NCBI GenBank assembly: GCA_903899015.1
Contig: CAIUHP010000045.1
Coordinates: forward strand, 1 to 64,000
Origin: an uncultured Armatimonadota bacterium
GTDB lineage: Bacteria; Armatimonadota; Fimbriimonadia; Fimbriimonadales; Fimbriimonadaceae
DNA length: 64,000 nt
Direction: 5' to 3'
A model generated the notes under the pieces. The model worked only from the letters and a program-made list of their open reading frames with translations. It ran no database searches and was not told where the DNA came from. A program made the translations under genes and the position numbers. Below are positions 27,171 through 42,770 of the stretch, piece by piece; within the stretch, counting starts at the first letter, position 1; each line of letters opens with the position of its first letter.

Positions 27171-28379
27171 TTGCGCAAGCTGATGAACGAATCCGTACCC
27201 CGCAAACTTACGATGCCCATGGCCCCGTGGCCCAATTATGACGACGAGCAGATTGATGCCATTACCGCGATCTATCGCAGCGGCCGAGTCAATTACTTAA
27301 GAGGCAAAATCGGGCCCGCATTTGAGCAGGAGTTCTGCGACTGGTCCGGTTCCAAAAAGGCCATCGCAGTCGGCAACGGAACCCTGGCGATTGAGATTAT
27401 TCTGCGTGGCCTTGGACTCAAGCCTGGCGATGAAGTAATCACAACCCCCCGAACATTCATCGCGACATCTTCCGCCTGCGTGCTGAACGGTTTGATCCCC
27501 GTACTGGCTGATATTGATATCGAAAGTGGCAATATCACTCCCGAAACGGTCGCTCCGTTGATTACTTCCAAAACCAAGGCAATTATTCCGGTCCACCTCG
27601 GAGGATGGCCGTGCGACATGCACGGTTTCAACGCGCTTGCTGAAGAGAAAGGGATCTATGTCATCGAGGACTGTGCTCAGGCTCACGGTGCAAAAATCGA
27701 TGGTCGTAGTGTGGGCACGTTTGGTAAAGCCAACGCTTGGAGTTTCTGCCTCGACAAAATTATTACCACTGGTGGCGAAGGTGGAATGGTGACCACCGAC
27801 GACGAAGAACTTTGGGCACACATGTGGTCACTGAAGGATCACGGTAAGAGCTACGACGCCGTTTTCAATCGTAAGCATCCGCCTGGATTCCAATGGCTTC
27901 ACGAAGGTTGGGGCACCAATTGGCGGATCACTGAGCCTCAATCAGAAATTGGGCGAATCCAACTTTCTCGAATGCCTCAATGGCACGCTGAGAGAACGAA
28001 GAATGCAGAGTTACTTCGCGACCGATTCAGCTCATTATCGGCCCTACATGTCCCCTGGCCAGGACCGGGGCTCGAAAATGCTTGGTACCGATTCTACGTC
28101 CACATCAATCAAGATGCACTCAAAGATGGATGGAGTAGAGACCGCATTCAGGCCGAATGTCAGGCTTTAGGCTTCAATATCTCTGTCGGATCTTGTAGTG
28201 AGATTTACCTTGAGAAGTGCTTCAAGGATTCCGGATATGGCCCATCTGAACCGTTGCCAAATGCCCAGAAAATGACAGGCCTGGCACTTGCGTTCCTTGT
28301 CCACCCAGGACATACCGAGGAAATGCTTCATGCCGTGGCTGACACATTTGAAGATGTCGTAAAAATGGCAACGCGCTAA
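27171..28379 (+). CDS. DegT/DnrJ/EryC1/StrS family sugar aminotransferase
   Basis: A 402-residue PLP enzyme that aminates a keto-sugar nucleotide. Visible: the N-terminal AVGNGTLAIEIILRGLGL cofactor region, the aspartate of YVIEDCAQAHGA, and the PLP lysine in FCLDKIITTGGEGG. TTG 27171 is supported by AAGGT; ATG 27183 is an alternative. Placed between a PglC-like transferase and a PglD-like acetyltransferase, it resembles PglE, which makes the 4-amino precursor of bacillosamine. Substrate is inference. Confidence 0.92.
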   Translation: MRKLMNESVPRKLTMPMAPWPNYDDEQIDAITAIYRSGRVNYLRGKIGPAFEQEFCDWSGSKKAIAVGNGTLAIEIILRGLGLKPGDEVITTPRTFIATSSACVLNGLIPVLADIDIESGNITPETVAPLITSKTKAIIPVHLGGWPCDMHGFNALAEEKGIYVIEDCAQAHGAKIDGRSVGTFGKANAWSFCLDKIITTGGEGGMVTTDDEELWAHMWSLKDHGKSYDAVFNRKHPPGFQWLHEGWGTNWRITEPQSEIGRIQLSRMPQWHAERTKNAELLRDRFSSLSALHVPWPGPGLENAWYRFYVHINQDALKDGWSRDRIQAECQALGFNISVGSCSEIYLEKCFKDSGYGPSEPLPNAQKMTGLALAFLVHPGHTEEMLHAVADTFEDVVKMATR

Positions 28380-28393
28380 TTGTCGATGAATCG

Positions 28394-30351
<1,958 letters not shown>

Positions 30352-31531: not shown

Positions 31532-32590
31532 ATGGTTACTCCAAATACGATCGTTGTAACGGGCGGGGCAGGCTTTATTGGGAGCAATTTTCTCAATCTG
31601 ATGGTCCCTCGGCATCCAGAAATCCTTTTTGTTAATTTTGATGCCTTGACCTACGCAGGCAATCTCGCAAGTTTGGAGTCGATCAAAGACCTTCCCAACT
31701 ATCGGTTTGAGCATGGCGATATTCGAGACCGGGAAGCGATTAAGCGTGTTTGGGAAACCCATAAGCCTGACTGCGTGGTTCACTTTGCAGCCGAGAGTCA
31801 TGTAGATCGCAGCATTTCGGGACCCACCGATTTTATTGAAACCAACGTTGTAGGCACGCTGAACTTGCTCGAAGCGTTCCGTGCGGGAACCGGGGGAGCA
31901 ACTAGCACCCGATTCCACCATATCAGTACCGACGAAGTTTTTGGCGCGTTGGGTGACGAGGGACTCTTCACGGAAGAGACGCGATACGATCCAAGCAGTC
32001 CTTATTCGGCTTCTAAAGCTTCAAGCGACCACATTGTTCGTGCCTATCATCGCACATACGGTTTGCCGGTAACGATCACGAACTGCTCAAACAACTACGG
32101 TCCACGCCACTTTCCCGAGAAACTTGTCCCACTGATGATCTTGAACACGATGGAAGGCAAGCCGCTTCCTGTTTATGGATCGGGCCTTAACGTTCGAGAC
32201 TGGCTCTATGTCGCCGACCACTGTGAAGCCATTTGGACGGTTCTTACGCAGGGCGTTCCCGGTGAAACCTATAACGTTGGTGGGAATGCTGAGAAGACCA
32301 ACCTCGATGTGGTTCATTCCATTTGTCGCATGGTTGGAGAAGAAACAGGGAAGTCCTACGACGATCTTGCCGGGCTGATCACGTACGTGAAAGATCGACC
32401 TGGACACGATTTCCGCTACGCGATCGACGCTACGAAAATCCGGACCGAACTAGGTTGGGAACCGACTGAAACCTTTGAGTCCGGCCTTCGAAAGACGGTC
32501 CGTTGGTACATCGAGAACACAAATTGGATTGACCAAATTCGATCGGGTGAATATCGTAGTTGGATCGAAAAGAATTACTCACAGCGCTAA
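31532..32590 (+). CDS. rfbB: dTDP-glucose 4,6-dehydratase
   Basis: A 352-residue short-chain dehydrogenase family enzyme, second step to dTDP-L-rhamnose. NAD-binding [12 protein letters not shown] at the N-terminus, the catalytic region [10 protein letters not shown] and [10 protein letters not shown] with the Tyr-x-x-x-Lys pair are all present, as is [15 protein letters not shown]. It is followed 20 bp later by rfbA in the same direction. Confidence 0.96.
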
Positions 32591-32610
32591 CGCACTATTA
32601 GGAAAGAAAA

Positions 32611-33495
32611 TTGACCACGAAAGGCATCATTTTGGCTGGCGGAACCGGAAGTCGGCTTTGGCCGGTAACTCGGGCGGTAAGCAAACAGCTTCTCCCCATC
32701 TACAACAAGCCAATGATCTACTATCCCCTCGGCATCCTCATGATGTCGGGGATTCGAGAGATCGTTGTGATCAACACACCTCACGAACAAGAGGCATTCA
32801 AACGCCTCCTGGGGGACGGCAAAGATTGGGGCATTAGGATTGAGTATGTAACTCAGCCGAGTCCAGATGGGCTTGCGCAAGCGTTTATTCTTTCCGAAGA
32901 TTTCATTGCGGGTGACCCTTGCGCCTTAGTGTTGGGGGACAACATTTTCTACGGACAGAGCATGCAATCTCAGCTAAGAGAAGCTGCCAGCCGAGAGACC
33001 GGAGCAACAGTTTTCGCTTATAGGGTGAAAGACCCCAAGCAATATGGCGTGGTGGAGTGCGATTCAGAGGGCAAAGCGATCAGTATCGTTGAAAAACCAA
33101 CTGAACCGAAATCTAACCTGGCGGTCACGGGACTGTATTTTTACGATTCCGATGTCGTCGAGATCGCTAAAAACGTCAAACCTTCTTGGCGCGGTGAGTT
33201 AGAAATTACTTCAGTAAACGCCGAATATCTCAACCGAGGCGACCTAAACGTTGAACGACTTGGACGTGGTGCAGCGTGGCTAGACACAGGGACTTACGAA
33301 GCACTGATCCAAGCGACAAATTTCGTTGAAGCAGTAGAGCAGCGACAGGGTCTTAAGATCTGTTGCCCAGAAGAGATCGCTTTCCGGAATGGTTGGATCG
33401 ACGCGGAACAACTATTGAAGCTTGCGGAACCTCTTAAGAAGAATGAATACGGAGAGTATCTCGAAGCTTTGGCTCATATGGGAGTTGTGGAATGA
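32611..33495 (+). CDS. rfbA: glucose-1-phosphate thymidylyltransferase
   Basis: A 294-residue enzyme making dTDP-glucose. The nucleotide-binding loop [30 protein letters not shown] and VLGDNIFYG are diagnostic. TTG start with AGGAAAG 5-11 bp upstream. Its last codons overlap rfbC (ATGA at 33492-33495). It belongs to an rfbB-rfbA-rfbC operon. Confidence 0.96.
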
Positions 33496-34049
33496 CGGTT
33501 ACAGAAACGGCTTTACCAGGTGTCTTGCTTTGTGAACCGAGGGTTTTCGGAGACAGTCGAGGCTTCTTTTTTGAATCGTACAGCGTCGCCAAATATCAAT
33601 CATCGGGCGTATCTTGCACCTTCGTGCAGGACAACGTTTCTTACTCGACGCCCGGCGTTATTCGAGGATTACACCTTCAAAATCCCACCGGCCAATCGAA
33701 ACTCGTCCAAGTTTTGCATGGGGCAGTATTTGACGTTGCCGTGGATGTTCGAGTCGGATCGCCCACCTTTGGTAAATGGATCGGAGAAATTCTTTCAGAC
33801 GAGAATCACCGTCAGCTCTTCATCCCAGAAGGCTTTGCTCATGGTTTTTCGGTGATCGGGGAATGCGCATTGCTTTCGTACAAGTGTTCCGCTCCATATG
33901 ATCCAACGGGCGAAATCACCATCCGATGGGATGACGAGCAAATTGGAATTGCGTGGGGCGTAGAAAATCCAACCGTCTCCGGGAAAGATCAAGCCGGACT
34001 TCGTCTTGCGGATGTACCGCTCGATCGATTGCCAAAGTATCTCGGCTAG
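33492..34049 (+). CDS. rfbC: dTDP-4-dehydrorhamnose 3,5-epimerase
   Basis: A 185-residue cupin-fold epimerase, third step to dTDP-L-rhamnose. It shows [13 protein letters not shown], the catalytic VIRGLHLQ (His), and [12 protein letters not shown]. It starts inside the rfbA stop. The final reductase RfbD is not in the window; the operon ends here at a hairpin. Confidence 0.95.
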
Positions 34050-34067: not shown

Positions 34068-36038
34068 CTATTGCGCGAGCTTGAAGGCTTCGTAACGTGA
34101 TCGAACGATGATGGACTCACGCAGCAGAACCGTTCGGCTCGTTACCATGTAGTCCTGATCCAAAGCTCGAATGAGCGTGTCCTGCTTCATCGAGTCTTGC
34201 TCGATGACCTTCACGAGCAAGTCGCGAACATAGATATCCGCGTCGACAAAGGCTGCCTCAATCAGTCGATCAAAGGTCGGCTGCTTCAATAGCGCTTTTG
34301 CTGCGTTCGCTCGAACTGCCCAGTCCTTGTCGTGCAACAGAGTGAGCAATGGCGGAGCCATTTCTTCCCAAGCCAGGTAGCCCGAAATTCGAGCGACCAT
34401 GGAACGTATTTTGCCCTCTCGGCTCTCGACGAACTCGTAGAACGCGCACACGATCTCAGCTCGCTGCTTTGGGGTTACCGTACGAGGAATGCCTTCCATC
34501 GCGTGAATGACTTCCCACATGTCTCGGGACGAAAATGTGCGAATCAGTCCATCGACGTCAGGGTTCGCCTCGCGTTGAACGGTACGTCGCTCTTCGCTGT
34601 CATCACTGGGGAGTTCTCCAACACCTTCAACATGTTGTGTGTTATCCCATCGAACGGCTGCCTTACCTTGTCGAGCCCGTGCGAATGTCTGAAGAGCACG
34701 GAAGGCTGCGAGACCGTTGATCACGTTTCCAACAACCAACCTAGGAATCGACATGAGTCCTTCAGGCAGTCCGTAAACCATTCCCACGAAGACGATTCGC
34801 TGGAACATGCGGAAGAACATGAAGAACGTATCCACCATAACCAACCGTTGAAGCTTTGAGCCTTGGTCAATGATGGGGAGCAATTTGAACCCGATGATAT
34901 GGTTATCGCCGAGGGCAAAGACAATGAAGTACGCGAGCAAGACATAACCCATCAAGGAGGTTCCAGCCGCAACAAAGACCTTCCGATCTTTGAGCAGGTT
35001 TTCCTTAATGCGAAGGCTTCCTGACCAACCGCCTAGCTCCCATTCTTGAAGCGAAATTCCGATGATCCAGCGAGTTTTCTGGCGGACCGCTCGAGTGAAG
35101 TCCATCGGGAAGTAAGCCCAGTTTGCGATGAAGGTAGATCGTTTACAAAGTGGCGTGTACCACTTATCGTTGCCACCATCGAGCACGAGGTTCACGAAAA
35201 TGGAAGTGAAGCCCGTTTCACGAATTCTCTTGGACATGCTGTAGTCCTCGGTCATCGTGTCTTCATTGAAGATTTTGTAGCCGCCAATGTGCTCGAGTGT
35301 TCGGAACACGCGACGTGAGAATCCAGTGCCCGTACCTGCATAAGGAACAAATCCCGAGATCTTTTCTCGGACGGGAACGTCCTTCATGTGCGTTTCGGAG
35401 AACTCGTCGGCGTATGTCCAGTGAACGATCTTCTTCCAACTGGTTGGAAGAGGAAGAATCGGCAACTGCATGACGTCGACGCGAGGAATAAGATAGTTGT
35501 ACAGCAAGAACGAGTGGGGATGAACCACGTCTTCAGCGTCGTGCATGACGATGATGTCGAAGTTGACATCATGTCTCTCTTCGTACTGCTTGATCACCTT
35601 GTAGACGTTGTTTAAACAGTCTGCTTTCGTGGTCGGGCCCGGGAGGGGTGTGACGACTTTGATGATCTGAGGGAATTCTTTCGCCAATCGATCAACCGCA
35701 TTTTGGGTCGCGGAGTCGTTCGGATATGTGCCAACAAAGACCAGGTAGTTCTTGTACTCGACCCGTTGAATGATGTTGTTGACCATGGCAGCCACAACTT
35801 CACCCTCGTTCCAAGCTGGAACCATGACCGCAATTCTTTGTTGCTCACGCATGCGGAGCTTTTCCAAGCTCAAGCGTTCGCGATTTCGAAAAGCGATTCT
35901 TCGATAGGCGCGTAAAGTGTAGGCGCCAATGTCATAGATGAGGTCTTGGCAGCCGCTAAGTAGGAAGACCATAGCTACGAACCAGGTCAGACCGAGCATG
36001 CAATCGCGCAGTAGTACGAGAAAGTCACGCCCTGTCAT
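34068..36038 (-). CDS. NfrB-like membrane glycosyltransferase with C-terminal HEAT-like helices
   Basis: A 656-residue processive-type family 2 glycosyltransferase in the inner membrane. After an N-terminal membrane helix (about 9-29) comes the catalytic domain VMVPAWNEGE, with acidic motif DAED (167-170), TED (263-265) and QKTRW (320-324; QxxRW). Further membrane segments lie at about 363-440. The N-terminal layout matches E. coli NfrB, whose C-terminus senses c-di-GMP. Here residues about 545-650 look instead like HEAT repeats (PPLLTLLHDKDWAVRANAAK). The BcsB-like gene lies 55 bp upstream on the same strand. Confidence 0.88.
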   Translation of the reverse strand: MTGRDFLVLLRDCMLGLTWFVAMVFLLSGCQDLIYDIGAYTLRAYRRIAFRNRERLSLEKLRMREQQRIAVMVPAWNEGEVVAAMVNNIIQRVEYKNYLVFVGTYPNDSATQNAVDRLAKEFPQIIKVVTPLPGPTTKADCLNNVYKVIKQYEERHDVNFDIIVMHDAEDVVHPHSFLLYNYLIPRVDVMQLPILPLPTSWKKIVHWTYADEFSETHMKDVPVREKISGFVPYAGTGTGFSRRVFRTLEHIGGYKIFNEDTMTEDYSMSKRIRETGFTSIFVNLVLDGGNDKWYTPLCKRSTFIANWAYFPMDFTRAVRQKTRWIIGISLQEWELGGWSGSLRIKENLLKDRKVFVAAGTSLMGYVLLAYFIVFALGDNHIIGFKLLPIIDQGSKLQRLVMVDTFFMFFRMFQRIVFVGMVYGLPEGLMSIPRLVVGNVINGLAAFRALQTFARARQGKAAVRWDNTQHVEGVGELPSDDSEERRTVQREANPDVDGLIRTFSSRDMWEVIHAMEGIPRTVTPKQRAEIVCAFYEFVESREGKIRSMVARISGYLAWEEMAPPLLTLLHDKDWAVRANAAKALLKQPTFDRLIEAAFVDADIYVRDLLVKVIEQDSMKQDTLIRALDQDYMVTSRTVLLRESIIVRSRYEAFKLAQ

Positions 36039-36093
36039 TTCTGATTAATCCTATGGTCTTCGTTCGAGATTTGTTGATCTACGCTGTTAACGA

Positions 36094-38310
36094 TTATTCT
36101 TCGTCATCCTCGTCGTCTTCATCTTCATCTTCATCATCTTCGTCATCTTCGACTGGCTTGGGCTTCTTAATGAACTGCTTGCCAACCCATACCGCGAGTC
36201 CGAGAAGGGAAACTGCGATGATAGACATGATCGCCAGCATTTGTGGCGTGTAGGTGTCCAGCGTCTTGGTGATATTAGGATCGTTCTTCAAGCCTAACAG
36301 TCGAAGCGGGATGACTCGGCCATCTTTCGTGATGACGCAGACCTGACCGGCGATCGTATCTGCCTTGTTGGGGTCGGATAGGAGGCTTGCAACCATGTTC
36401 AGGGCATCGTTATCTTCCGCCATGACAACGTAAAGCACACCACTTGGACTCTTGGGGGCTGCAACTGCTTGAATGACTGCACCGCCGACCAAGGTGTCCG
36501 GCATCAGCTGAATCTTGTTGTTGATATCAAACTTGCCTTTGCCGACTGGGCAAACCAGGAGATCCTTCCGGATCTGGGCAAATCGTTCGATCTCAGAGTA
36601 GTAACCAACCGCCACGCCACCCTGGAGAAGCGAGGTAACTTCTCCCTTCTTTGTCGTCCAGTTAAGGTTAATCCGGTTCGTTTGAGCGGCTCGTCCTGCA
36701 ACGGCGGCCGCCAAAGTGAGCTCTTCGTCCGAAGGGTTGGACGAGAAACCGAAGTTGATGGAACTGGGAACTCGTCCGTCGCTCGGAATCAAGTAAGGAA
36801 AGCTTTCGAGGTAAGGGCGGCCAATGAGGTTTCCATTGACGAGTTCGAAAGTGGATTCACCTTCGATAACTGTCCAGGCAACGTCATCGTATGATTTCGA
36901 ACAGTCGGCTGCACCCAGGTCGTGGAAGCAAGCAATGTCGATGACCCAGAAGTTCTTTGCCAACTCTTCGACTGGAATTCGAGCTCGAATGATGCCGTCA
37001 TTCGCATTTTCTGGCTCGAGCTTGGCACTGCCGATTGGAATTCCGTTAAGGAAGATCGTAATCAGTGATCGAAGCGGATTCATGGATGCCGAGTGGCGGA
37101 ACTTAACCTTGATGTACGACTCTCGACCCAGGTCACATCGGAGCGGGCGTCGAATCGTAAGGCTTGTTCGCTGGTGGAATGCACCGGAAAGGTGAATCGC
37201 GGGCAATCCAAGGTCGGTAAAGGTGAATGAACCCAGTCGTGTTCCTGGTGCGATCGCCGCTTCAACTGGGGGAGTGTTGATGACGGCAGAAGTGCTTCCC
37301 ATTTGCGAGATCATCTCGTTTTGGGCAAGAGCACCGGTAGCCGACTTCAGACCGAACACGTCGGACCCTGTAACCAGTAGACAAGACGCCGCGGGCGAAC
37401 CGGTTGCGGAGAAATTCTTTAGCGCACCGACCTTTGGAGAAAGATTTTGGGGTGTGAATTTGGACCAGATCGGATTATCCGAGATCAGAAGCGCCTGTCC
37501 CGAAGGCGTACCGGCCGGACGAGTTGCGACATTGATTCGCAAGCCGTTTGAAGGTAATCGCTTGCCCCAGTCGCTCGCAATATTGAGCATGCTGGCGATC
37601 GTTTCGGTGGACGGATCAGAAGGCACCATCCATCGGCATCGCACCGCGTCATCCTCGAGTGGATCGAGGTAAGGGAACGGGTAGAGCATCAATGGGAACG
37701 TCGTGGGATCTTTGCGAACCAAGTGAAGAGTGGTGTTCTTACCAATTTTCAGCCAGTTGGCGTAGTTGTCAACGTCACGACAAGGCCCGTCGCTCGACTT
37801 TTGTCGGTTAGCGATGCGAATCTCATTGAAGCCACGCTTGAAATACTTATCGGGAAGAGCAACTCTCCAGGGAATCGAATCACCAGCAACTGGAGGAAGC
37901 ACTCGGCTCGCAAGAGGGTAGCCGTTTAAGAAAACCGTAATGCTTCCTTGGCCGGGCAAAAGTGTTTGCGATGTTGAGTAATCCAGAAGGAAGTAGGATT
38001 CACCCGGATAAACCTCCATACCAGGCTTAATTTCGAAGAAGTAAGACCACTGGTTTGAGGGATTGACGAAGACCTTGTCTTCGTTTAGCGGATGCATGTT
38101 GTAAGCATGCTGGCCATACGGACCTGTGATGAGGTCGTGCGGAGACTGCTTGTTCACAATGTCAGCCGCGCTAGCAAATGCCGTCAACATGGGCATTGCA
38201 GCAAATGCTAAGGCGATTGCCCGCACAACGGAGCCGGAACTGGCTCGCTTGCTAAACCTGGTTTTTGCAGGTCGGGTTGCCTTAAGTAAATTGTATTGAC
38301 TGTTTGTCAT
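36094..38310 (-). CDS. BcsB-like periplasmic glycan-synthase partner
   Basis: A 738-residue protein of the BcsB family: N-terminal signal or membrane segment, tandem carbohydrate-binding-like and flavodoxin-like modules in the periplasm (ITVFLNGYPLASRVLPP; LITIFLNGIPIGSAKLEP), then a single C-terminal membrane helix (about 688-712). In cellulose synthase BcsB guides the polymer across the periplasm and anchors BcsA. The last 20 or so residues are almost all Asp and Glu, cytoplasmic by topology, and unusual. It lies just upstream of the NfrB-like synthase. Confidence 0.87.
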   Translation of the reverse strand: MTNSQYNLLKATRPAKTRFSKRASSGSVVRAIALAFAAMPMLTAFASAADIVNKQSPHDLITGPYGQHAYNMHPLNEDKVFVNPSNQWSYFFEIKPGMEVYPGESYFLLDYSTSQTLLPGQGSITVFLNGYPLASRVLPPVAGDSIPWRVALPDKYFKRGFNEIRIANRQKSSDGPCRDVDNYANWLKIGKNTTLHLVRKDPTTFPLMLYPFPYLDPLEDDAVRCRWMVPSDPSTETIASMLNIASDWGKRLPSNGLRINVATRPAGTPSGQALLISDNPIWSKFTPQNLSPKVGALKNFSATGSPAASCLLVTGSDVFGLKSATGALAQNEMISQMGSTSAVINTPPVEAAIAPGTRLGSFTFTDLGLPAIHLSGAFHQRTSLTIRRPLRCDLGRESYIKVKFRHSASMNPLRSLITIFLNGIPIGSAKLEPENANDGIIRARIPVEELAKNFWVIDIACFHDLGAADCSKSYDDVAWTVIEGESTFELVNGNLIGRPYLESFPYLIPSDGRVPSSINFGFSSNPSDEELTLAAAVAGRAAQTNRINLNWTTKKGEVTSLLQGGVAVGYYSEIERFAQIRKDLLVCPVGKGKFDINNKIQLMPDTLVGGAVIQAVAAPKSPSGVLYVVMAEDNDALNMVASLLSDPNKADTIAGQVCVITKDGRVIPLRLLGLKNDPNITKTLDTYTPQMLAIMSIIAVSLLGLAVWVGKQFIKKPKPVEDDEDDEDEDEDDEDDEE

Positions 38311-39040
38311 CAGTTGCTCTTGGATCGGTTTTATATCGGTTCGAGTCTTCCTTGAGCTAAAGCGGCGATCATCATGATCATGCTAGTTGGCCCAAAAAAG
38401 ACTGCTCCAGTTACCGGGAGAAGCAAAGACCTACAATCCGCTCCCCCAATTTTGGGTCACGGAAAAAGGTGTAGCTAGTCGCGTAATCACGTGACATGCT
38501 TCTCACGGCTTGTAGAGTTGTTTTTTCGGTCGAACGAGGGCACCTTGGAGAGTGCTTACAAGTTCCATGAACTGAAGTATTCGTTCTCATTTGGGTGCGC
38601 GCCAGCCCCTCATTGCGGGTACCGGATCTATGCGACACATTAAGCCCGTTTGCGGGCGAGATATTTTTGCTGTCAGAAACGACCTTTAAGTCGAAAATAG
38701 ACGGAAAATATCAATTCTAAGGGAAAAAGTGAACTAGGAGACGGTAGGATGGAATTCAGAGCAGTTTGATCAGGAATGGTGACCATTCTGACCAAAACAT
38801 GGCTCTGATTCTTCAATTAACTATATGAGTTACGACAACTGTCGTTCGAGAAACAAGGATAAGGTCGGGCAAATTCCAGTGGACATTGCCGGGCCAGTGT
38901 TTGGGGGCAGCCGCCAAGAAACCTAACTTGCAAGTTGGGTAGTTCTTCTCCTGAAGAGCGTTCTGGGCGCCTGCTCCGAACGCTCTTCGTCATTTGGTGA
39001 ACTATGAAGTTCACGCGAAATTAGAAAAGGAGGGGCAGCC
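38311..39040. other. long intergenic region with RNA hairpins
   Basis: This 730-bp gap contains no supported protein gene before the small gene at 39041. The left part is upstream DNA of the BcsB-like gene. The right part (38840-38990) is rich in pairable sequence, including the two hairpins annotated separately. I looked for c-di-GMP (GEMM) riboswitch hallmarks because of the BcsB neighbour and did not find them. Confidence 0.5.
38916..38988 (+). promoter_or_regulatory. tandem hairpins before a 47-residue gene, attenuator-like
   Basis: Hairpin 1: AAGAA and ACCTAACTT (38916-38929) pair with AAGTTGGGT and TTCTT (38932-38947). Hairpin 2: GAAGAGCGTTC (38953-38963) pairs perfectly with GAACGCTCTTC (38978-38988), followed by GTCATTT. 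The linker TCTTC-TCCT-GAAGA (38944-38957) can form a competing hairpin that disrupts both. Mutually exclusive folds of this kind are typical of attenuators or riboswitch expression platforms. Ligand or trigger unknown. Confidence 0.5.
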
Positions 39041-39184
39041 ATGCTCAACATCAAGACAACCATCTTTCAAGCCGGCCGAAAGATTTCTGCCTTTGAGGAC
39101 TTTCGCAAATTAGTAAACGACTGGTTCTGGTTCGAAGGGAAATTTGCCTGCAGAACTCGGGGAGAGGAGTGGTCGATGGACTAA
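39041..39184 (+). CDS. 47-residue small protein with very strong ribosome site
   Basis: ATG at 39041 is preceded by AAAAGGAGG (39025-39033), one of the best Shine-Dalgarno sequences in the window, with 7 bp spacing. The product is 47 residues, basic at the N-terminus and rich in aromatic residues in the middle (NDWFWFEGKF). It has no signal peptide and no recognised family. The upstream hairpins and downstream stem-loops suggest an independent small transcription unit. Support is from signals only, not homology. Confidence 0.6.
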   Translation: MLNIKTTIFQAGRKISAFEDFRKLVNDWFWFEGKFACRTRGEEWSMD

Positions 39185-39330: not shown

Positions 39331-40236
39331 TTAGAAGCCGAATCCCGGGCCACCTTGACCTTGGCCATCGGGGCCACCGGGACCTCCTGGGCCACCGCCT
39401 CCGGGACCACCGAAGCCACCTCGCGGTCCGCCTTGGCCAGGACCACCTTGAGGGCGAGGCTGGGCAACGAACTTCTTGGTGCCTGCCATCTTCTTCAAGG
39501 CGGCTTTTTGGCTGTCAGTGAGAATGGCTTCGATCGCATCGTTCATCGCCTTTCGTGCCTTTTCCATTCCCGGGTTACCACCAGGTCCACCAGGTCCACC
39601 GCCAAAGCCTGGACCGCCAGGACCACCATCAGGACCGCCAGGGCCCCCTGGACCTCCGGGGCCACGCTGAGGCCGATTTGCCTTAGCGATAGCGTCAATC
39701 TTCGTCTTCTGATCGTCGGTGATGCCAATTTCAGCAGCGATTTCTTTATCAAGAACGGCGCTCGGACCGGCTAGCTGAACCTTGATCTCTTTCAGGCGAG
39801 CGTTTTGCGAAGCGGTCAGAACTTTGGCAATTGCCTTGTCCATTTCGCCTTGCATCTTGTCCATCTGTGCTCTCATCGCTTGAAAATCGGGCTGCTCGCC
39901 ATCGTCTGGTGGCTGCATCCTTGCCTGCATCTTCTCGCGGAACTTGTCCATCATGTCTCGGATCTCAGATCGTTGATCTTCTGTGATGGCGAGGTCCTTG
40001 CCTACGTCAGGTCGATTAACTAACTGAGCGCTGTGTTGTGGTCCAGGGCCACCCATTCCTGGTCCGCCCATGCCAGGGCCTCGGCCCTGACCCTGTCCGC
40101 CGCCCTGAGGAGGGGGAGGAGCGTCTTGTGCATTTGCAGTTCCTGCAGTAACAACGAGTAGAGTGGCAATTCCTGCTACGGCTGCGCTAGTGGCGAATGC
40201 TTTTCTAAAAGCTGCGATCCAAGTTCTTTTGTTCAT
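39331..40236 (-). CDS. Spy/CpxP-like periplasmic protein with collagen-like Gly-Pro runs
   Basis: A 301-residue exported protein (signal peptide ending about residue 36, TANAQ). It has two blocks of the LTxxQ-type seen in Spy/CpxP: ITEDQRSEIRDMM ... LTASQNARLKEIK, and ITDDQKTKIDAI ... LTDSQKAALKKM. Between and after them are long Gly-Gly-Pro runs (about 195-225 and 262-300). The ribosome site AAGGAG is 7-8 bp upstream. It is divergent from a two-component system; a related protein lies at 47435-48100. Spy/CpxP proteins are envelope-stress chaperones or sensors, so a link is plausible. Confidence 0.8.
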   Translation of the reverse strand: MNKRTWIAAFRKAFATSAAVAGIATLLVVTAGTANAQDAPPPPQGGGQGQGRGPGMGGPGMGGPGPQHSAQLVNRPDVGKDLAITEDQRSEIRDMMDKFREKMQARMQPPDDGEQPDFQAMRAQMDKMQGEMDKAIAKVLTASQNARLKEIKVQLAGPSAVLDKEIAAEIGITDDQKTKIDAIAKANRPQRGPGGPGGPGGPDGGPGGPGFGGGPGGPGGNPGMEKARKAMNDAIEAILTDSQKAALKKMAGTKKFVAQPRPQGGPGQGGPRGGFGGPGGGGPGGPGGPDGQGQGGPGFGF

Positions 40237-40504: not shown

Positions 40505-41179
40505 ATGAAGATCTTGTTAGTTGAAGATGAACGACCTTTAGCCACTGCGGTGGTGCGTGTTTTGACCGACGCGGGGTGGGTGCTTACTTGGGAATCGGAT
40601 GGAAAGAAAGGGTACGAGACGGCGCTTCACGAGGATTTTGACCTTATCATTCTCGACGTCATGCTTCCCAACAAAAATGGCTGGAGCATTTTGTCGGATC
40701 TCAGACTCAACAAGAGATTGATGCCGATCATGATGCTGACGGCACTTGAAGAAACGGACGACAAGGTGAAAGGATTCGAGCTGGGAGCGGATGACTACTT
40801 GCCAAAGCCATTTGAAGTTCCTGAATTAGTCGCCCGGGTCAAAGCGATGTTGCGGCGAGACAAGATCAATAAGAGTATCGTGACTCGCATTTCTGATCTC
40901 GAGATTGACCGGAAGAACCGGAGCGTGACTCGGGCAGGCAAGCTTATTTCTTTGACTCGCAGGGAATACGACCTTTTAGAAGCTCTAGCTTCAAACGAAG
41001 GGCGAGTTTTGAGTCGAGAAACCATCCAGGAACGCGTTTGGACCGACGAAGATAGCTATTCCAACACGGTTGACGTGTTTATTGGTACCCTTCGCAAGAA
41101 AATCGATGCCCCATTTGATCATAAGCTGATTCATACGGTGCACGGATTTGGATACGTTTTGAAATCTGAAACTGCCTAA
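40505..41179 (+). CDS. OmpR-family response regulator
   Basis: A 224-residue DNA-binding regulator. Receiver domain: acidic pocket VEDE, phospho-acceptor Asp51 in LIILDVMLP, Thr/Ala switch MLTALEE and Lys in LPKPF. It is followed by a winged-helix domain (LTRREYDLLEALASNEGRVLSRE ... VDVFIGTLRKKI, HTVHGFGYVL). It starts 4 nt after a GGGAAGCGGAA stretch. The sensor kinase gene starts 7 bp later. Targets probably include the divergent Spy-like gene, as in CpxR/cpxP; that is inference. Confidence 0.95.
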   Translation: MKILLVEDERPLATAVVRVLTDAGWVLTWESDGKKGYETALHEDFDLIILDVMLPNKNGWSILSDLRLNKRLMPIMMLTALEETDDKVKGFELGADDYLPKPFEVPELVARVKAMLRRDKINKSIVTRISDLEIDRKNRSVTRAGKLISLTRREYDLLEALASNEGRVLSRETIQERVWTDEDSYSNTVDVFIGTLRKKIDAPFDHKLIHTVHGFGYVLKSETA

Positions 41180-41186
41180 AACCATT

Positions 41187-42770
41187 ATGACTTTGACTCC
41201 CAAAACGATTAGGGCTAAGTTGACCTTGACGGCGGTTGCTGTCATGGCCGTCTTGTTCATCGTCTTAGGATGGGTCGTTCAAATCCTTGGACGCGAAGAA
41301 ATTATGGGTAGCGTCGATAGCGAACTCGCTCGCCGGGCAAACGAGATCATCCAGATTCACAACGATATGCGCAGGGACCGGCCTCCTCCCCCAATGGGCC
41401 AGAACCTAGGGCCAGGTGGCGACCAAAGACAGGGCCCGCGCCTAGGTCAAGGACCTGGAGATCACAACGGTGACCATGGTCCGGACGGCCCGAACGGTCG
41501 AGATCGGCGAAATGGTCCCGGCGGTCGTCCGGGCGATCGCTTTGGTGGATTTCAAAGAGCCGTCGCCAAACTTGGTGACCCGTTGTTGGCGATTGGCCCG
41601 CGATTTGTAAGCATCACTCCCGGACCTCCTTTTGCCCCGCCCGACATGATGGTTCCGTACGATGCAAACGTCATCAAGGAAGCGGACAGAAAGGGCGTGG
41701 TTTATTCCACGATTCTATTGGGACAGGAAAAGGTGCGCCTTATCTCAAAGCGAGCTGTCGATGAGAATGGACGACATTGGCTTGTTCAATATCCGTACCC
41801 ACTCGGAGATATCGACAAAGCGCTCAAAAAGTTAGCCCAAACGCTTTTGATTCTGCTCCCATTCGGGCTGATCCTTACGGCGGTTGCTTCACTTTTCCTG
41901 GTCAAGCGGATCATGCGTCCCATTCGTGAGATCACTGAGACGGCCGATTCTATCGGAGCGGACAATATGTCCGGTCGACTTACTGTTGTGGGGGCAGATG
42001 AATTCGGACACCTGGCCGATACGATGAACGGCATGTTTGGCCGAATCGAAGCTGCGTTTGCGGCCCAAAAAGTGGCAATGCAAAAGCTTGAGTTGATTAT
42101 CAAGCAGCAACGAAGATTCACCGCTGATGCTTCCCACGAGTTGAAGACTCCGTTGGCAGTCATCAAAGCGAACACCGGGTTGATGTTGCATGGAATGCCA
42201 CTCGACGAAGACTCGAAAGAATCGGTTACCGCAATCGACACCGCGGCAACTCGAATGAACCGACTCGTTCAAGACTTAATGGTACTGGCCCGCGCCGAAT
42301 CTGGCCTTGCACCCAGTGCTCCGAAGCTATTTGATTTGAATTTGACAGCACAAAATGCGATCGATCAGGTGTACCGGGCGAAAGAAATGGACGTGACGTT
42401 CACCAGCGACTCGGTACAACTCATGGTGGAAGGCATCGAGTCGGATATCGAGCGCGTGTTTATCAATCTGATCGACAATGCGTGCCGGCACACCCAAGTC
42501 GGCGGAAGAGTTGGGGTCCACGCGTTCGAATCTGATCGTTATGCGGTTGTGCAAATAACCGATTCGGGGGAAGGAATTGCAGCCGAGCATCTGAGTCACC
42601 TTTTCGATCGCTTTTACCGAGTCGATGATTCTCGGTCTTCGGAGAGCGGGGGCACCGGTTTAGGACTTGCGATATGTAAGGGCATCGTCGAATCCCACCA
42701 TGGCGAGATTTCAGTTTCGAGCACGGTCGGGGAAGGGACCACCATGACCGTGCGCTTGCCCATGCCTTAG
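41187..42770 (+). CDS. sensor histidine kinase with Gly/Pro/Asp-rich sensor region
   Basis: A 527-residue membrane kinase. TM1 is at about 12-34 and TM2 at about 217-238; HAMP follows. The dimerisation/phospho-acceptor segment has His317 in ASHELKTP. The ATPase domain shows NLIDNACRHT, DSGEGI and GGTGLGLAI. The periplasmic part between the helices is unusual: residues 64-122 are low-complexity Gly/Pro/Asp/Arg, like the Gly-Pro runs of the neighbouring Spy-like protein. It pairs with the preceding regulator. Confidence 0.95.
   Translation: MTLTPKTIRAKLTLTAVAVMAVLFIVLGWVVQILGREEIMGSVDSELARRANEIIQIHNDMRRDRPPPPMGQNLGPGGDQRQGPRLGQGPGDHNGDHGPDGPNGRDRRNGPGGRPGDRFGGFQRAVAKLGDPLLAIGPRFVSITPGPPFAPPDMMVPYDANVIKEADRKGVVYSTILLGQEKVRLISKRAVDENGRHWLVQYPYPLGDIDKALKKLAQTLLILLPFGLILTAVASLFLVKRIMRPIREITETADSIGADNMSGRLTVVGADEFGHLADTMNGMFGRIEAAFAAQKVAMQKLELIIKQQRRFTADASHELKTPLAVIKANTGLMLHGMPLDEDSKESVTAIDTAATRMNRLVQDLMVLARAESGLAPSAPKLFDLNLTAQNAIDQVYRAKEMDVTFTSDSVQLMVEGIESDIERVFINLIDNACRHTQVGGRVGVHAFESDRYAVVQITDSGEGIAAEHLSHLFDRFYRVDDSRSSESGGTGLGLAICKGIVESHHGEISVSSTVGEGTTMTVRLPMP

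Follow-up and report, generated by a model that had tools for sequence, protein, structure and literature searches.

A HEAT-repeat domain at the C-terminus of a probable NfrB-type glycan synthase encoded beside a BcsB-like protein in Fimbriimonas (Armatimonadota)

The gene pair and the C-terminal domain of the synthase

The window analyzed here is a stretch of 64,000 nucleotides (contig CAIUHP010000045.1, positions 1 to 64,000) from an uncultured member of the Armatimonadota, whose genome of ~4.9 Mb belongs to the same genus as public Fimbriimonas metagenome-assembled genomes. On its minus strand lie two genes separated by 55 bp, the first specifying a BcsB-like protein and the second an NfrB-type glycan synthase of glycosyltransferase family 2 (GT2), which ends in a HEAT-repeat domain (Table 1). 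An earlier note, made from the sequence alone, had listed both open reading frames (ORFs), described an NfrB-type core with DAED, TED and QxxRW motifs next to a BcsB-type partner, and suggested a HEAT-like C-terminus where a c-di-GMP module would be expected. Profile matches, motif analysis and structure prediction bear out each of these points.

The synthase matches Pfam Glyco_tranf_2_3 (E 1.7e-37). Its best NCBIfam model is PRK15489 (457.8 bits, below the cut-off of 537), and it scores 396.1 bits against the NfrB model, below the equivalog cut-off of 1170; the NfrB-type models cover residues 16–471. The DAED, TED and QKTRW motifs are invariant or almost so among the relatives, and QxxRW and TED are marks of processive GT2 enzymes. 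In the AlphaFold model the core has predicted local distance difference test (pLDDT) values mostly of 80–90, with a long predicted N-terminal helix and predicted membrane helices at about residues 342–456. Foldseek/VIA comparison of the core gave the mannosyltransferase PcManGT as the top match (Z 24.0), and cellulose and hyaluronan synthases at Z 18–21. On this sequence and model evidence the protein is probably an exopolysaccharide (EPS) synthase of the NfrB/GT2 kind.

The core is followed by a linker which is the least conserved part of the whole synthase, with pLDDT below 50 at residues 460–491. Beyond it, the C-terminus is a HEAT domain. Pfam HEAT_2 is matched at residues 538–584 of the window synthase (E 3.5e-7; 30.9 bits against a cut-off of 27.7) and in 18/18 HEAT-type homologues at E 0.01 or better (best 6.9e-16), while the MshEN and PilZ profiles match neither the window synthase nor any of the 18 HEAT-type relatives; MshEN or PilZ is thus ruled out as far as profiles can do so. 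Searched against PDB, the domain profile retrieved chains of alphaRep, an artificial HEAT protein, down to E 2e-31, and scaffold subunits of PP2A at about 1e-4. Since VIA on the whole model left the C-terminus unprobed, residues 489–656 were modelled separately from the rest of the synthase (AlphaFold, 18 sequences), giving an all-helical structure of eleven helices with a pLDDT of 95.9 and a predicted template modelling score of 0.89. The top Foldseek/VIA rank was again taken by alphaRep chains (Z 14.0, 143–146 residues, root mean square deviation 4.3–4.4 Å), natural HEAT/ARM proteins ranking just after them. Middling Z values are usual for helical repeats, and the HEAT call therefore leans on the sequence matches. 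The domain is retained in all copies; its identity between subgroups is ~30%, compared with 56–70% for the core, and only nine columns of its alignment are invariant.

Table 1. Features of the synthase and BcsB-like genes in the window
Feature	Position	Strand	Basis
NfrB-type GT2 glycan synthase with C-terminal HEAT domain, 656 amino acids	34068..36038	-	ORF list, profile matches, motifs
Synthase catalytic and membrane core, residues 1-470, GT-A fold	34629..36038	-	AlphaFold model, Foldseek/VIA
DAED motif, residues 167-170	35529..35540	-	sequence, alignment
TED motif, residues 263-265	35244..35252	-	sequence, alignment
QxxRW motif (QKTRW), residues 320-324	35067..35081	-	sequence, alignment
Synthase linker, variable, low confidence, residues 471-492	34563..34628	-	pLDDT, alignment
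HEAT-repeat domain, residues 493-656, eleven helices	34071..34562	-	HEAT_2, AlphaFold, alphaRep/HEAT matches
BcsB-like protein, 738 amino acids, upstream gene of the pair	36094..38310	-	Pfam BcsB, E. coli BcsB profile match
C-terminal membrane anchor of BcsB-like protein, residues 691-709	36184..36240	-	hydropathy, alignment
Acidic tail of BcsB-like protein, residues 721-738, 18 residues, not conserved	36097..36150	-	sequence, imperfect tandem repeat
Position of third gene in most relatives; no listed ORF of at least 80 amino acids here	38311..39100	.	ORF list, tblastn

The BcsB-like protein matches Pfam BcsB with E 6.9e-42 (144 bits, cut-off 21), as do all nine aligned homologues, and its profile retrieves E. 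coli BcsB chains at E about 1e-8. Hydropathy analysis indicated an N-terminal hydrophobic segment at residues 28–46 and a C-terminal transmembrane helix, the latter segment being conserved in the alignment. As a query, the sequence itself recovered nothing in the first genome-contig scan and nothing by tblastn against plasmids, because it is too divergent. The acidic tail of about 20 residues reported in the earlier note is real, consisting of 18 acidic residues (EDDEDDEDEDEDDEDDEE), yet it is absent from most orthologues. Its coding sequence is an imperfect tandem repeat with 6/12-bp periods spanning 54 bp (36098–36151). In the nearest orthologue, L025, whose synthase is 92% identical, the acidic end is shorter, and in the remaining orthologues the tail is absent or unrelated, the ends being short and either basic or mixed. 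The tail is a recent local repeat expansion, for which repeat slippage is the simplest explanation. A functional role for it was rejected, since it is not conserved and is encoded by a tandem repeat.

Distribution and gene neighbourhood

NfrB-type synthases are known as effectors of cyclic diguanylate (c-di-GMP), which is bound by the MshEN domain of E. coli NfrB. The MshEN domain was present in 30 of the 35 other NfrB-type proteins sampled, and has been reported as conserved in 1,705 of 1,841 NfrB-type homologues (PMC8669469). C-termini do vary within the group: most are MshEN or GspE-N-like, but short ones occur in Variovorax, in Sphingomonas and in two proteins of Rhizobiales type. In a maximum-likelihood tree of 53 cores, all 18 HEAT-type proteins fell on one side of a single branch with support of 100/100; the branch is long (2.73) and its joining point to the other NfrB-type proteins is unsure. 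All 18 HEAT-type synthases examined come from Armatimonadota. Across the 291 genomes of the phylum that were searched, full HEAT-type synthases turned up only in five of the examined genomes of the genus, in a single related genus and in a single further family, the carrier genomes of the genus holding two or three copies each. No HEAT type was found outside the phylum among the best 80 of 146 confirmed genome-contig matches to two short motifs, a result which is not proof of absence. There is good support for the occurrence of HEAT in place of MshEN, which, within the literature searched and the present data, has not been described. Either an ancestral MshEN domain was replaced, or HEAT was gained independently on a core which never carried one; with the root uncertain, the tree does not decide between these directions.

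The earlier note had proposed a survey of the neighbours in related genomes. Such a survey showed bcsB adjacent to the synthase in 11 of 14 copies in the genus; it is frequent there but not obligatory, being absent beside L029, L030 and L032. Among the genus copies, the bcsB of L024 is interrupted by the contig end, and that of L023 (L023:10442-12523), a paralogue from the genome of the window itself, is divided between two ORFs. At the family-mate loci L181 and L182 bcsB also lies beside the synthase.

A third gene is found in 11 of the 13 genus copies with a readable upstream side, lying upstream of bcsB or, in copies without bcsB, of the synthase itself. It specifies a putative membrane protein of 184–284 amino acids with CPxC towards the N-terminus, CxxC towards the C-terminus, and between them a stretch whose hydrophobicity is strong in one subgroup and weak in the other. 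Neither Pfam nor PDB offered a convincing match for it, and a test of four carriers outside the genus did not reveal it. It is also lacking from the window copy and L028, and tblastn at E 10 revealed no remnant upstream of the window bcsB. The window copy has thus lost, or never had, this gene, which therefore cannot specify an obligatory subunit. L034:6747-7301 and its homologues form an undescribed family in which a hydrophobic middle is flanked on either side by CxxC motifs. Distant homologues stand alone in three genomes (L177:9169-9786, L178:3511-4125 and L179:8249-8845), with a dnaJ-like gene nearby in L177 and L178.

Rfam revealed no riboswitch near the bcsB-synthase pair, and promoter and terminator scans gave scores at shuffle level. 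Convergent to the pair are genes for RmlB-, RmlA- and RmlC-like enzymes of dTDP-sugar synthesis (31532–34049), and convergent Rml-like genes also occur at L026:5331-7867 and L027:10667-13197, that is, at two of three close orthologous loci. It is possible but unproven that they supply a deoxysugar for the polymer; a rhamnose polymer was considered and found no support beyond this neighbourhood. Elsewhere in the window, a DegT-type aminotransferase gene followed by a PglD-type acetyltransferase gene (27171–29017) forms an amino-sugar pair near the synthase. A Gly/Pro-rich LTXXQ-motif protein (39331–40236) adjoins a response regulator and histidine kinase (40505–42770), an arrangement resembling that of envelope-stress (Cpx-like) systems. 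In the same genome, L036:6162-9644 specifies another glycan synthase, a single protein of 1160 amino acids that joins GH18, polysaccharide deacetylase and GT2 domains.

A proposed mechanism and its alternatives

With a probability of roughly 0.55, we favour the reading that the pair is an NfrB-type EPS synthase with a BcsB guide, in which a protein-docking HEAT module stands instead of a c-di-GMP switch. From its motifs and fold, the core would polymerize a nucleotide sugar at the cytosolic face and feed the chain through its own membrane helices. By homology with BcsB, which handles cellulose in this way, the BcsB-like protein, held by its single C-terminal transmembrane helix, would take the chain and guide it in the periplasm. 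The HEAT domain occupies, in the Armatimonadota lineage, the place of the cytosolic MshEN and, rather than binding c-di-GMP itself, probably docks a protein that switches, localizes or clusters the synthase; the CxxC membrane protein specified by the third gene in most copies is a candidate partner. HEAT domains are typically protein-binding, and such a control role is plausible; we infer it, as we do the sugar product and the export route.

Several observations weigh against this proposal. Besides its absence from three genus copies, bcsB was not observed next to either f20 locus (L180 and L183). Searches for the outer-membrane exporter domains NfrA_C and BCSC_C, both positive in an E. coli control, found neither in nine carrier genomes. 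A WecB-type epimerase gene is present in the genome, unlinked to the pair, and UDP-N-acetylmannosamine (UDP-ManNAc), the substrate proposed for E. coli NfrB, therefore cannot be assumed.

The strongest alternative, itself rather unlikely, is that the HEAT domain is structural only, serving synthase oligomerization or membrane placement with no part in regulation. HEAT domains are often scaffolds, and the weak conservation between copies, with its nine invariant columns, would suit such a role; the domain nevertheless sits exactly where NfrB has its control domain, beyond a flexible linker that follows the membrane helices, which argues against a purely structural role. It is quite improbable that the synthase is non-processive, adding single sugars to lipid or protein beside a BcsB that is a chance neighbour. 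The first rank of PcManGT and the copies lacking bcsB point that way, but the enzyme has both QxxRW and TED, its core also matches cellulose and hyaluronan synthases, and bcsB accompanies the synthase not only in most genus copies but also among family-mates and in the nfrB clusters of distant Proteobacteria.

The cellular context is compatible with c-di-GMP signalling. Each genome holds 4–11 GGDEF domains, MshEN domains occur elsewhere in the same genomes, and such signalling therefore probably exists in these cells; PilZ was not found in the five genus genomes. That the HEAT domain is a novel kind of receptor for c-di-GMP or another nucleotide, leaving control the same in kind, is very improbable: with GGDEF domains and no PilZ, non-PilZ receptors must serve, but the fold is an all-helical repeat, MshEN or PilZ is matched in 0/18 proteins, the MshEN domains elsewhere can already act as receptors, and we know of no HEAT-type c-di-GMP receptor. 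The synthase itself has given up at least its MshEN-mediated link to c-di-GMP.

A capsule has been seen in Fimbriimonas ginsengisoli, in whose genome no complete EPS cluster was found (PMC4072686), and the HEAT-type system is a candidate for this unexplained structure. In its broadest form, the idea would be that these are phylum-specific EPS synthases removed from direct c-di-GMP control, activated by a HEAT-docked protein (perhaps the CxxC membrane protein) and making the Fimbriimonas capsule; taken as a whole this is unlikely. The clade-wide exchange of MshEN, with several copies per genome, offers a natural domain-swap experiment on the switching of glycan synthases.

Comparison with known systems

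The earlier note suggested that the pair could be a hybrid glycan export machine, NfrB normally pairing with NfrA and BcsB with BcsA. The premise that BcsB is unexpected beside NfrB is wrong, and the pairing is not new, being known in Proteobacteria. In a plasmid collection, wecB, bcsB and genes for an NfrB-type synthase and an NfrA-type protein stand in one row in Variovorax (CP063167.1), Nitratireductor (NZ_CP029209.1) and Paraburkholderia (NZ_LR699556.1), with an extra gene in the wecB-bcsB interval in Nitratireductor and in the synthase-nfrA interval in Paraburkholderia. A BcsB homolog has also been reported in the nfr cluster of Achromobacter (PMC8669472). As in the window, bcsB in the three plasmid clusters lies directly upstream of the synthase gene on the same strand. 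Unlike the window, they keep nfrA and wecB, and their synthases end in an MshEN/GspE-N-like domain (two) or have a short C-terminus (Variovorax).

With E. coli NfrB, which synthesizes the N4 glycan receptor in the NfrBA-WecB system, the window synthase shares the GT2 core motifs, the membrane helices after the core and a cytosolic C-terminal module. It differs in having HEAT instead of MshEN, a BcsB rather than an NfrA neighbour, an unlinked wecB and a score below the NfrB equivalog cut-off. The BcsA-BcsB cellulose synthase likewise combines a GT2 synthase with a BcsB partner carrying a C-terminal transmembrane anchor, whereas the window synthase has no PilZ domain, its genome has no BcsC, and its nearest sequence families are the NfrB-type models, not BcsA. 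Finally, the C-terminal domain resembles HEAT-repeat and artificial alphaRep proteins in both fold and sequence, but differs from them in being fused to a membrane glycan synthase.

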